A stretch of DNA of 5,854 nucleotides from a bacterium (GTDB taxonomy: Bacteria > Coprothermobacterota > Coprothermobacteria > Coprothermobacterales > JAADFF01), in NCBI GenBank assembly GCA_027063755.1, contig JAMORD010000125.1:1-5854 (forward strand), given 5' to 3'. Of the stretch, positions 1,236 to 5,854 are shown one piece after another. The notes beneath the pieces are model-generated. The model was not told the origin of the DNA and did no database searches. It saw nothing but the letters and a program-made list of their open reading frames with translations. Numbering within the stretch: position 1 is the first letter of the stretch; each line of letters begins with the position of its first letter. The translations under genes and the position numbers were made by a program.

Positions 1236-3785
1236 ATGGATAGGTGGCAGAGGTTACGAGAGATTGTAGATATTTATCTGAAGGATACGGGGCAAGGCGA
1301 AGATCTCCTTGCTCCCCTTGCCGCGGAGCAGGTTTCCAATGTAGACAAAGACCTTCCTCTAAAAACTGGATGTAGTCTGGTGCCTATGTACAACCGGGAT
1401 ATAGAGCTTGTTAACACGGTAAGACATCCACAATATGTTGTATGTAAGCTGAAAGAACTCTATAGATTTATAGATGGTTTGAGTGTTGGAGAGAGAGAAA
1501 AGATTCTACTTTTCTGGTGGTATTCTGCGTATGTCTATCATGATGCCACTCCTATGTCTACTCCCGGTTGGAATGAAATACTACATCATACTATACTTGA
1601 TGTCATAGATACATTGGGAGCCTTCCATCTATCAGATGGTGATGATATGGGGCTTCTTCTCTTTTCCTTCTCACCCGTTCAGCCATTTATAGAAGGAGCA
1701 AAGAAGCTTAAAGACCTTTGGGGAGGTAGCTATCTTCTTTCGCTGTTTACACTTTCTGCTATAAAACAGGTGTTTGAGAGTAAAGGAGTGACTCCTTATA
1801 ACATTATTCTTCCATCTATTCGCCACAATCATATGGTATATACATGGATGAAAAAGAAGTATGGTAAATATATGGAACGGATAGAGTCCCTATCATATGT
1901 TATGTCTAAACCTCTTGATATGCCCGATTTCCCTCACGAATATATGCGTGTAGCGGGACTTCCAAATAGAATTTTGCTTCTTGTTTCAGAGAGAGAAAAG
2001 GATCATATTGTTGGGGCTATGGATAGAGCTATTAGGGAGACGTGGAATAAAGTCGTTGAGGTGGCAGTGGGTGAGCTTAGGAATGTAGATGGATGGGAAG
2101 AGATGTGGCACTGGCAGGAGCTTGTGAAGGAAGAAAAGAAGACATTTCCCCAGACATACCATGCGTTTATACCACTGACATCTGATATTGAGGATATAAA
2201 GAGATTTTTGACAGAAAAGGGAATAGATAGGGAGTGGAACTATGTAAAGGAGTGGTTTAACAGACAGACGAGGGAAGCTAAGAAGCTTCATCCGGCAACA
2301 TATGTGCTGTGGCATGTGGATGCTGTAAATGCCAAGCATGGTGGTGTAAAGGCGTTTACACCGTTTTACCCATATGAGATGAAGGTAGAATGTCCTCCTC
2401 TTCTCATGGATGATCTGTCAGGTAAGGTGCCGGCTGCCTTTGTACTGGAAGATGACGATAGCAGAATACACCGGTTTGGTGTTGCCTCTCTGGTAAAGAG
2501 GTATATGGAACAGATGGCTTTGTCTGTTATAGAAGATGAGGAGAAACCTAAATCTCTTCCCACTACTAAATATATGGGATTTGATACCGGTTCTACATTT
2601 CCTTCTGTCTCTTGGGTTGCTGGATATAAGTTTGTGAAATGGGCAAAGGAAAATGGAATATGTGAGGATGCGGTGAAAGATCTTATAGGAGAAGAGAAGT
2701 TGTGGGGTGATTTAGGGGCTGAAAGAAAGAGAGAAATAGAAATGGATAGGGGAGAATCGGGGGCTATCGCTGAGTATATAGCTGAGGTTTGCAAAAAAGA
2801 AATATTCCCTGACGAATCCAAGATCTTACTTCCCTCAGGCTACTACTCTGTACTCATGCTTGATGGTGATAAGATGGGGGCATGGTTTAGTGCCACACAT
2901 GAGGTGATAGACAAACATGTAGAGATGGTGGATAAAGACTGGATGTTTGAAAGGTTTTATAAGCTTATTAGTGAGAGTGAAGCCAAGAGATCCATCTACC
3001 GTGGGATTGTTCTTGGACCTGCATATCTCAGAAACCTATCCACCGCTATAGGTACATTTGCCTATCTCGTGCCTGCCATTGTTATGCATCATGGCGGTTT
3101 TATGGTGTATGTGGGTGGTGATGATGTCCTTGCCATACTGCCTCCAGAAACGGTCTTTGATGCCATAGAGGATATAAAGATGCTATTTGCCGGTGGCGGA
3201 GAAGAGGGAATAGATGTTCTTGGCTATAGGGTGAAGAAGGGCATCATTTATAAGAATGGTAAACCTCTTGCCATGCTTACAGGAACAGCCCATACTATGA
3301 GTGGTGGTGTAGCTATCTACTGGCTAAAAGATCCTCTGGTACTTGCTGTGAGAGATGCGAGAGAGGGAGAAGGTAAGGCTAAGGGAGCAGGTAGGAATGC
3401 CGTGAATTTCATCATGAGGGAGAGAAGTGGCAGGCCGATAGAGGGTGTGTTAAAGTGGGAAGATGATATGAAACTGTGGAAGAAGGGCAGATTAAAGGAG
3501 ATGAACAGAATTCTTGAGGATGTTTGGGACAGTAATAAGCTTTCGCCATCTTTCCTATATGAAATGTATAATGCACGCCATGAGCTTGAGGCGATGGCTA
3601 CTTCTCCCCATGATACCGGTGATTATGACCTCATGCGGCAGTATTTTGCCTATTTCTTAGACAGACATGGGCTTAAAGAGACTAATCTCAGAGAAAGACT
3701 TGCCAACTACCTTGCCCATGAGTGGTGGCAGGATGCCCTTGCGTACATGAAGGTATGGCTTCGCATATGGAGGAGGGGTAGATGA
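1236..3785 (+). CDS. cmr2: Cmr2, Cas10-family large subunit of type III-B CRISPR complex
   Basis: This is the large subunit of the cytoplasmic Cmr RNA-targeting complex. In the family, the Palm domains convert ATP to cyclic oligoadenylate when target RNA is bound. The product has 849 residues, close to the family's usual length (P. furiosus Cmr2, 871). The Cmr2 signature SPVQPFIEGAKK with DLWGGSYLL begins at residue 146. The second Palm domain has DGDKMG (543-548), VYVGGDDVLAILP with GGDD at 627-630, and SGGVAIYW from 689. The nucleotide/metal aspartates D543, D545, D629 and D630 are all present, so cyclase activity is expected. The N-terminal region before the signature is short (about 145 residues). 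It has YLKDTG at 14-19 where family members such as P. furiosus Cmr2 have YLHDPP, so the HD nuclease is probably inactive. The insert at about 380-425, normally a four-cysteine zinc site, keeps only C386. The gene begins one base after the previous stop and overlaps cmr3, implying translational coupling. Identification is firm; the loss of the HD and zinc sites is inferred from remembered family sequences. Confidence 0.96.
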   Translation: MDRWQRLREIVDIYLKDTGQGEDLLAPLAAEQVSNVDKDLPLKTGCSLVPMYNRDIELVNTVRHPQYVVCKLKELYRFIDGLSVGEREKILLFWWYSAYVYHDATPMSTPGWNEILHHTILDVIDTLGAFHLSDGDDMGLLLFSFSPVQPFIEGAKKLKDLWGGSYLLSLFTLSAIKQVFESKGVTPYNIILPSIRHNHMVYTWMKKKYGKYMERIESLSYVMSKPLDMPDFPHEYMRVAGLPNRILLLVSEREKDHIVGAMDRAIRETWNKVVEVAVGELRNVDGWEEMWHWQELVKEEKKTFPQTYHAFIPLTSDIEDIKRFLTEKGIDREWNYVKEWFNRQTREAKKLHPATYVLWHVDAVNAKHGGVKAFTPFYPYEMKVECPPLLMDDLSGKVPAAFVLEDDDSRIHRFGVASLVKRYMEQMALSVIEDEEKPKSLPTTKYMGFDTGSTFPSVSWVAGYKFVKWAKENGICEDAVKDLIGEEKLWGDLGAERKREIEMDRGESGAIAEYIAEVCKKEIFPDESKILLPSGYYSVLMLDGDKMGAWFSATHEVIDKHVEMVDKDWMFERFYKLISESEAKRSIYRGIVLGPAYLRNLSTAIGTFAYLVPAIVMHHGGFMVYVGGDDVLAILPPETVFDAIEDIKMLFAGGGEEGIDVLGYRVKKGIIYKNGKPLAMLTGTAHTMSGGVAIYWLKDPLVLAVRDAREGEGKAKGAGRNAVNFIMRERSGRPIEGVLKWEDDMKLWKKGRLKEMNRILEDVWDSNKLSPSFLYEMYNARHELEAMATSPHDTGDYDLMRQYFAYFLDRHGLKETNLRERLANYLAHEWWQDALAYMKVWLRIWRRGR
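3769..3776 (+). promoter_or_regulatory. Ribosome-binding site of cmr3, inside the end of cmr2
   Basis: GGAGGAGG, followed by two more G, lies 5 bases before the ATG at 3782 and 8 bases before the adjacent ATG at 3785. It sits within the last cmr2 codons, so ribosomes ending cmr2 can restart at once. Either ATG could be used; the spacing slightly favours 3785. Confidence 0.75.
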
Positions 3786-4816
3786 TGCTTGTAAAGTTTG
3801 AATTTACCCAACTTACGCCATGGTTCTTCAAGGCAAATACGACATTTACATTGGGGACATGGGGATATACCCGTAAGCTTCCTCCTATTTCTACCCTCAT
3901 AGGAGCCATACGTTCAGCATTGGGAGAAATCTTAGGGGGGGATTGGGAGAAGTATAGAAGTGGGGAGAGACCAGATATTGAAAGAGTCATAGGGAAGTAT
4001 GGAACACAGGAGGATTTACCCTTTGTGGTCTATGGGCCATTTGTTGGAAAAGGCAATGAGGTGTATTTCCCACTGCCTGGCATACTGAAGGTTTATGAGA
4101 TTTCTAAGTATGGAAGGACGGAGATAGATAATGTTGTTAGGGCAAAAATGTTTGACGAAGAGTATGAATATGAAGGTAGTGTGAAGTTAAAGACATGGGG
4201 AGGGCTTCCGTCAAAGAAAGAGGCTAAAGGGTATTGGCTTACCATGTGCGGTATGAATGCGTTTTTAAAGGGAGAGAATGTGAATAAAGATGAAGGGGTA
4301 GAAAAGATAGGCTTTGCATCTGTGGTGGAGGAAATCGGTGTGAATATAGACCGGGATAGGTGGGCTGGTGGAGATGAAAATGCCATGTATCGTATCCGTA
4401 GGGTGTTTATGAATCCGGGGTATAAGATTGTGGCTTATGCCTACTTTACCGGGGAGGTAGACATCCCATTTGGGAGTGTGGATATTCCATTTGGGGGTAG
4501 AGGAGGCATGGCAAGGGTGAAGGTCTCATGCGGAGAAAACATGGTTAGATGCTGGGTAGAGAGAAAGGGAAACCTTGCCTACCTTGGAGCACCTCATTAT
4601 ATGAACTGGAAAGGGCTTCCTCTTCCAGATGGTAATGTTATAGCTGCCTCCGTGGGTAAACCCATACCCTATCGCATGCTTGCCCCTGGCATAAACCCCG
4701 AGAAATCTACGGGAATCGTTAGGCATCTTGCCCCCCAGGGAAGCGTGTATGTGTGGAAGACACCCCCAGCGGGTGAGGTTAGAAATATGCCAATGTTTTG
4801 GGGAAAATTAATTTGA
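3782..4816 (+). CDS. cmr3: Cmr3, Cas5-group RAMP subunit of type III-B complex
   Basis: Cmr3 pairs with Cmr2 at the foot of the Cmr complex and helps hold the 5' repeat-derived tag of the crRNA. The product has 344 residues (343 from the second ATG), normal for the family (P. furiosus Cmr3, about 320). Family features in order are: an N-terminal strand and LTPWFF (11-16); the RAMP helix motif PPISTLIGAIRSALG (34-48); EEIGVNID (183-190), matching the conserved E-x-IG-hydrophobic segment; a glycine-rich loop FGGRGGMARV (237-246) in the place of the usual GGE-type RAMP loop; and a C-terminal LAPQGSVYVW (316-325), matching the PAGSVY-type ending. Its start overlaps the cmr2 stop (ATGA). One oddity is that VDIPFG occurs twice in tandem (226-231 and 233-238), just before the glycine-rich loop. 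Assignment rests on the motif set plus its position directly after cmr2. Confidence 0.92.
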   Translation: MMLVKFEFTQLTPWFFKANTTFTLGTWGYTRKLPPISTLIGAIRSALGEILGGDWEKYRSGERPDIERVIGKYGTQEDLPFVVYGPFVGKGNEVYFPLPGILKVYEISKYGRTEIDNVVRAKMFDEEYEYEGSVKLKTWGGLPSKKEAKGYWLTMCGMNAFLKGENVNKDEGVEKIGFASVVEEIGVNIDRDRWAGGDENAMYRIRRVFMNPGYKIVAYAYFTGEVDIPFGSVDIPFGGRGGMARVKVSCGENMVRCWVERKGNLAYLGAPHYMNWKGLPLPDGNVIAASVGKPIPYRMLAPGINPEKSTGIVRHLAPQGSVYVWKTPPAGEVRNMPMFWGKLI

Positions 4817-4820
4817 AAAA

Positions 4821-4828
4821 AAGGAGGG
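4821..4828 (+). promoter_or_regulatory. Ribosome-binding site of the HEPN-motif gene
   Basis: AAGGAGGG lies 6 bases before the ATG at 4835, in the 18-base gap after cmr3. An in-frame ATG at 4829 directly abuts this site and is therefore a poor start. The gap holds only this site and a run of seven A spanning the cmr3 stop, with no hairpin that would suggest a terminator. Confidence 0.8.
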
Positions 4829-4834
4829 ATGTTT

Positions 4835-5854
4835 ATGGCGCAGACTTCCCCGTTTCTTGAGTGGTTGGGCGGTAAGAGATCGGTCAACAAGTGGTTAGAG
4901 AAAATGGAAGAGAAGGGTAAAGGTAAAGATGAAGCATTAAAAGAGAATTTAGAAGATTTGTTGTTGAGTTACCTGTTAGAAAACTTTATTTCTAGGTATT
5001 TAGATGATGTGCGTAATAATAAATTCAAAGGGATAGAATCTGATAGATGGCGATTTATTCCTACGCTCGAGGCAGCTATAAGAAAAAAAGATGAAATAAA
5101 GAAGAGTTATAAACATGTTTTGGATGGATTCGAAAAGGAAGCAAAGGATACATTTATTGATTATATAATGCTTATGGATTATCTTGATGTATTTGTATCA
5201 ATGAATGCCTATTTAGGATATGTACCATCAGAAGATGTAATCTTTGCTAATATGGTTTTTGTTACCATGAGAACGATTGTAGAATTTTTAATAGAATATC
5301 ACTCCAAATTTAATGATCAACCAAAGATAAAGGCGATCAGAGATATCTTTGCGCATATTGATGGAACGGATGTGCTTGTTGAGGTACTAGATGGACTAAG
5401 AAAGATGAGGAACACGTTTGTACATGTTGATAATACGGTGGAGTTCTTTACTAAAAGTCAAATTAAAAGTGAGGTAGAAGAGCCTTATGGAACGAGAATA
5501 AATATTATGTTTTATTATATATTTCGAGAAGCCATCAAGGATGCTATTAGGTTGCTTAATAATGAAGATATACATAAATGGCGAAAGAGAAGAGTTTGTT
5601 TTAGTTATTCATGTGAGAAAAGTAGATTAGAAAGTGATTATAAGTTATTGGCTGCAGAATATATTAAGTCTAGTCAACAAGTAAGGTATTATCCATTTTT
5701 CATTTCTTCTCCCAAATCTATTAATGATGTATTGGATGAGATAGACAATACGGGTGAAAAAGTTTTATGTGAATTGATTTTAGACCACTTGTTGACACAA
5801 GTTTGTGGAATGAACCGAACAACGGAATCAGGGAATATTATGACTGCTGTTTTA
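4835..5854 (+). CDS. HEPN-motif protein, putative CRISPR ancillary RNase, 3'-truncated by window edge
   Basis: A continuous reading frame of 340 codons starts at the ATG at 4835, behind a strong ribosome-binding site, and leaves the window without a stop. The most informative feature is LRKMRNTFVH (188-197). R192-N193-x3-H197 is the R-x4-H form of the HEPN RNase active site, preceded by a predicted helix (VLVEVLDGL) as in HEPN domains. A second, similar string, RDIFAH (169-174), lies 23 residues earlier. The N-terminus has a charged Lys/Glu-rich segment (24-40), and most of the visible protein looks helical. There is no signal peptide or membrane segment. No RAMP glycine-rich loop is seen, so it does not look like Cmr4 or Cmr6, and it is far too long for Cmr5. 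No Rossmann-like CARF sensor was recognised, though one could lie beyond the window. Known CRISPR HEPN RNases (Csm6, Csx1) carry CARF at the N-terminus, so this would be a different architecture. The gene is much richer in A+T than cmr2/cmr3, suggesting separate acquisition. That it is a gene is near certain; HEPN membership is probable; its role is inferred from operon position. Confidence 0.75.
   Translation, partial: MAQTSPFLEWLGGKRSVNKWLEKMEEKGKGKDEALKENLEDLLLSYLLENFISRYLDDVRNNKFKGIESDRWRFIPTLEAAIRKKDEIKKSYKHVLDGFEKEAKDTFIDYIMLMDYLDVFVSMNAYLGYVPSEDVIFANMVFVTMRTIVEFLIEYHSKFNDQPKIKAIRDIFAHIDGTDVLVEVLDGLRKMRNTFVHVDNTVEFFTKSQIKSEVEEPYGTRINIMFYYIFREAIKDAIRLLNNEDIHKWRKRRVCFSYSCEKSRLESDYKLLAAEYIKSSQQVRYYPFFISSPKSINDVLDEIDNTGEKVLCELILDHLLTQVCGMNRTTESGNIMTAVL

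Follow-up and report, generated by a model that had tools for sequence, protein, structure and literature searches.

What does the gene directly behind cmr3 encode in this type III-B CRISPR locus, and does it serve the defence system beside which it lies? The window, that is the whole stretch of 5,854 nucleotides analysed here, is contig C125 in its entirety and comes from a bacterial assembly that totals 1.5 Mb and is broken into 251 contigs. With a probability of roughly 0.45, we read the gene as a divergent RNase of HEPN type that would serve the Cmr (type III-B) operon as an ancillary effector and be switched by the Cas10 messenger.

The plus strand carries, in this order, an unnamed gene, cas10/cmr2, cmr3 and the HEPN-like gene under study. 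The ATG of cas10/cmr2 (1236..3785; TIGR02577 3e-49, Pfam Cmr2_N and palm2, PADLOC Cas10 5e-69) stands one base past the stop of the preceding gene, and the start of cmr3 (3782..4816; PF09700 1.5e-17, PADLOC Cmr3 4e-23) overlaps the cas10 stop. NCBIfam supports cas10, and the Cmr3 match alone falls under its cut-off. The identities first given to cmr2 and cmr3 from the bare sequence are thus borne out by Pfam and PADLOC and, for Cas10, by NCBIfam as well. Both palm motifs of Cas10, LDGD and GGDD, are intact, and because both are kept this enzyme should, by established knowledge, make a nucleotide messenger. The HEPN-like gene runs in the same direction as cas10 and cmr3 and thus shares its operon with a Cas10 that is competent as a cyclase.

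The unnamed gene at the head of the contig (2..1234, plus strand) consists of the C-terminal 410 codons of a frame whose 5' end lies outside the contig. It has no family match and is possibly an HD-domain protein, with D-x-GH (as D-L-G-H) near its start and IYHR later. These motifs recall the HD domain in the CARF-HD protein of contig C103, though the pairwise score against that protein is marginal (Z 2.4, reached by 11/500 shuffles). The gene may be a second effector of the operon.

Other contigs of the same genome carry further Cmr genes. A second III-B locus on contig C103 (L011, positions 1-6840) reads cas10 (cut), cmr3, cmr4, cmr5, cmr6, cmr1 and then a gene, truncated where the contig stops, for a CARF-HD effector that PADLOC recognises (CARF7 CARF_HD, 7e-21). 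Contig C178 (L019, 85-2499) holds cmr1-cmr4-cmr5 without cas10 or cmr3 and ends 84 bases past cmr5. The genes that the operon studied here lacks may be this set, which would then possibly form its upstream half; a search for overlap between the ends of the two contigs found none proving a join. On contig C144 (L020, 144-4692), a Cmr4-like RAMP fragment is followed by proteins of 348, 497 and 407 residues. The first and third of these are related (BLASTP 2e-8), the 497-residue protein bears a metallo-beta-lactamase-like motif (H-F-H-A-D-H), and the three have no Pfam or PADLOC match, which makes an unusual RAMP-associated gene set.

The gene itself can be delimited at its start. From the cmr3 stop (TGA, 4814-4816) a gap of 18 bases leads to the ATG at 4835, and the frame is open from there, or from an ATG at 4829, through the last base of the contig. 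We prefer 4835 since a GGAGG ribosome-binding site (4823..4827) stands 7 bases upstream of it and is too near to the ATG at 4829. The long frame 18 bases past cmr3, with a strong ribosome-binding site of its own, is therefore present as had been claimed. It spans 340 codons (4835..5854, plus strand). At 33% GC chance alone would turn some 7% of codons into stops and the frame has none over its 340, while GC differs between the codon positions (40/28/30%); its length is therefore no accident. As the frame meets the contig end without a stop, statements about the protein concern its first 340 residues; the missing end was sought through contig overlaps and further cas RAMP genes in the assembly and was not found.

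The composition of the gene sets it apart from its surroundings. Its GC content is 33% against 43-46% in the neighbouring genes, and in the sampled genome, where pieces of 1020 bases have a mean of 41% and a standard deviation of 3.4%, only 1 of 87 pieces is as low. The likeliest change point falls at 4917, just inside the gene. Being AT-rich beside its neighbours, the gene appears to have been acquired separately, perhaps recently, and need not belong to the system, which counts against an effector. It could instead encode a HEPN toxin or abortive-infection protein that acts on its own, having landed behind cmr3 without being driven by Cas10. Another III-B locus lends this idea some support: just upstream of its cas10, in Caldicoprobacter oshimai, lies a stand-alone HEPN-like frame of 151 residues (L037:9212-9664, plus strand) with the motif RNLLVH, which resembles the HEPN partner in a nucleotidyltransferase-HEPN pair. 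We nevertheless hold such a passenger gene to be unlikely, given the tight spacing, the gene's own ribosome-binding site, the shared operon direction and a position also used by CARF effectors.

This last point emerged from a count of 84 Cmr3 genes, for which we drew on 80 III-B loci together with 6 further contigs. The next gene is cmr4-like in 56/84 and encodes a CARF protein in 12/84, of which 10 are of the APE2256 type, 1 is Csm6 and 1 is Csx1; the remainder have an unclassified frame next (7/84), an edge or no clear next frame (7/84), or split or double Cmr3 frames (2/84). With 12 of 84 Cmr3 genes followed by a CARF protein, the slot behind cmr3 is one that ancillary genes and effectors regularly occupy. 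The original prediction had argued from this position for tight functional coupling. The place proves not to be exceptional, so the claim of a special position loses weight; as a known effector slot it strengthens the effector claim, makes an effector role likely and leaves the missing CARF as the notable point. In other loci, the ten best candidates for CARF-less Rx4H proteins close to cmr3 were rejected on closer look: they were CARF-HEPN, CARF-adenosine deaminase, Lon-domain, Csx16- or Csx3-ended or RAMP proteins, unrelated enzymes or an implausible frame.

Whether the effector would be a HEPN protein depends on the middle of the sequence. HEPN proteins carry Rx4-6H with a polar residue after the R, often together with E-x3-[KR] in helix 2, in a fold of four helices whose third is closed by the motif (PMC3710099). 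The R-N-x3-H motif previously assigned to residues 192-197 is indeed found there as RNTFVH, counting from 4835. The earlier reader missed a second copy, RDIFAH, at residues 169-174, and a polar residue follows the R in both (N and D, respectively). The two copies belong to an imperfect repeat of 14 residues, IKAIRDIFAHIDGT (5327..5368) and LRKMRNTFVHVDNT (5396..5437), both on the plus strand and 23 residues apart, which is the best match of the protein to itself (BLOSUM62 score 37). This score was reached by 1/200 shuffles, or by 2/500 when only close pairs were counted. Single motifs are common: R[NDHQ]x3H is present in 5% of shuffles of the protein, and R[NDH]x3H in 95/839 frames of 250-500 codons from related loci. 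Two copies no more than 40 residues apart occur in only 3/839 of the same frames, so that a single motif is weak evidence and the pair is better; the duplication is beyond chance. In addition, E-Y-H-S-K at residues 154-158 (5294..5308, plus strand) puts E154 and K158 where the E-x3-[KR] of helix 2 is expected, a pattern common in helices that occurs 7 times in this protein.

Structure models were of limited help. Two single-sequence models reached pLDDT 35 and 38, too poor to use; in the former, helices at about residues 107-129, 133-158, 177-207 and 218-241 (from 4835), with unreliable boundaries, follow an order that fits HEPN, with the motif falling in helix 3 of what would be the core. No HEPN profile from Pfam, NCBIfam, PHROGs or PADLOC matches the protein, nor does any family at all in Pfam, NCBIfam or PHROG. 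The comparison with HEPN families that had been proposed as a check likewise gave no match: profiles of Csm6, Csx1 and APE2256, built from proteins of neighbouring loci and run with hmmsearch and hhalign, scored no higher than on the reversed sequence of the protein used as control, in the profile-profile comparison too.

The search for homologues was equally negative. None was found in the genome itself or in some 770 other whole genomes; the searches covered relatives and three other phyla, and they were empty also for viral contigs, plasmids and phages and for all frames of the 80 III-B loci and others. A scan of 85,000 species genomes, sensitive to close relatives only, also returned none. 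As pattern-based scans find only close relatives, the protein is an orphan at this sensitivity. Borderline matches were inspected and put down to chance, among them a SelB-like factor, a protein of efflux or outer-membrane type, and several more, chelatase-like proteins included.

The silence of the profiles, the pLDDT of 35 and a single motif that arises by chance in 5% of shuffles all count against a HEPN effector. The gene could instead encode a helical protein that has an accessory or structural role and no RNase function, and the Rx4H motifs would then be part of a repeat of helices in some other fold. The protein is recognised by none of the HEPN families, 5-11% of proteins bear one such motif by chance, and a common repeat of helices could account for the duplication. 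Yet HEPN is matched by the letters of the motif, by its spacing and polar second residue and by the order of the helices, and it is known that HEPN families diverge too far for profiles to recognise (PMC3710099); we consider this explanation rather improbable, while taking it seriously. With no profile match, no homologue and a poor model, the HEPN assignment is built on the motif, the helix pattern and E-x3-K, from which we may reasonably infer a HEPN protein. The original description of an ancillary HEPN RNase thus stands in part: the placement of the motif and of E-x3-K and the helix order agree with it, whereas homology to HEPN families proved not demonstrable.

If the protein is a HEPN RNase of the Cmr operon, the question becomes how it would sense the messenger. 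Within its 340 residues no CARF domain was found by Pfam or by the CARF/HEPN models of PADLOC, which include CARF-HEPN-CARF and CARF-HEPN-Csx3/Csx16/Csx20 forms. The same models match the positive controls L052 and L086; two ordinary neighbours are recognised at 1e-97 and 1e-99, the orphan not at all. The prediction that no CARF stands at the N-terminus accordingly holds for the 340 residues present. Neither SAVED nor any other known sensor was found in them.

By a crude propensity prediction, the last 90 residues (5585..5854, plus strand) look alpha/beta, with a strand-helix-strand-helix-strand order cut by the contig end, and could begin a Rossmann-type domain. The libraries searched contain no family match for this region. 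A TIR or CARF domain in the tail, suggested by eye, was rejected for want of profile support; a CbiX-like chelatase (L133) aligned to residues 272-327 in agreement with an alpha/beta tail, a match expected by chance over 386 genomes. A sensor behind the HEPN region is possible, and the last 90 residues may begin it; it would most plausibly lie in the missing C-terminal part. In related neighbourhoods, L052 is a CARF-HEPN-CARF protein and so has a further domain behind HEPN. Two long proteins near III-B loci (L098:17140-18954 and L045:15551-17230, both on the plus strand) carry RN-x3-H and, behind it, end in a ring-nuclease domain of the Csx16 or Csx3 kind; they are apparently self-limiting effectors.

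The lack of a CARF, SAVED or other known sensor would also suit an effector that dispenses with the messenger and is restrained or turned on through the Cmr complex touching it directly. This seems to us very improbable, as the cyclase motifs of Cas10 are kept and the C-terminus, a possible sensor site, is missing from the contig.

The favoured reading, a messenger-switched HEPN RNase, would work as follows. Binding of target RNA by the Cmr complex would lead Cas10 to make its nucleotide messenger, which would be bound by the cut-off C-terminal alpha/beta region or by an unseen part of the protein and turn on the RNase. R192 and H197, perhaps with R169 and H174, would form a metal-independent RNA-cutting site, probably on dimerisation, and general RNA cleavage would then halt the cell or the virus. 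Whether the gene represents a new family of type III effectors is a more ambitious proposition, namely a HEPN RNase whose single chain bears two motifs of catalytic type at a distance of 23 residues, devoid of CARF and SAVED, and controlled by a new alpha/beta sensor behind HEPN or without a messenger; we regard it as doubtful. An effector in the usual slot without a CARF, if true, would imply another sensor for Cas10 messengers or another coupling between target recognition and RNA cleavage. It would also mean that effector slots behind cmr3 hold proteins overlooked by current profile libraries.

Among known systems, the candidate single-gene defence protein PDC-S15 of PADLOC gives a weak match at residues 50-107 (from the ATG at 4829; E ~0.0015, 16 bits), but this covers 60 residues of 254, lies outside the motif region and is too weak to use. 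With the HEPN superfamily of toxin-antitoxin and abortive-infection proteins, the orphan shares R-N-x3-H, a candidate E-x3-K and a helical context; it differs from them in having no Pfam HEPN match and no antitoxin partner visible beside it. Csm6 and Csx1 resemble it in lying beside cmr genes, in sharing an operon with a Cas10 competent as a cyclase and in an Rx4H motif whose second residue is polar. Unlike them, it has no CARF before the motif, no sequence similarity and two motif copies, and whereas their HEPN domain lies at or near the C-terminus, its motif is in the middle of the protein with at least 143 residues following. In the HEPN effectors that have been described for type III CRISPR, the switch is a CARF domain ahead of the HEPN (PMC3710099, PMC11229360). 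CARF-HEPN-CARF, CARF-HEPN-Csx16/Csx20/Csx3 and Csm6-2 all begin with CARF, and no PADLOC model of these matches the orphan; in them a further domain lies behind HEPN, and the tail of the orphan looks alpha/beta too. Set beside these systems, the gene behind cmr3 stands as a candidate for a new effector variant in type III CRISPR.
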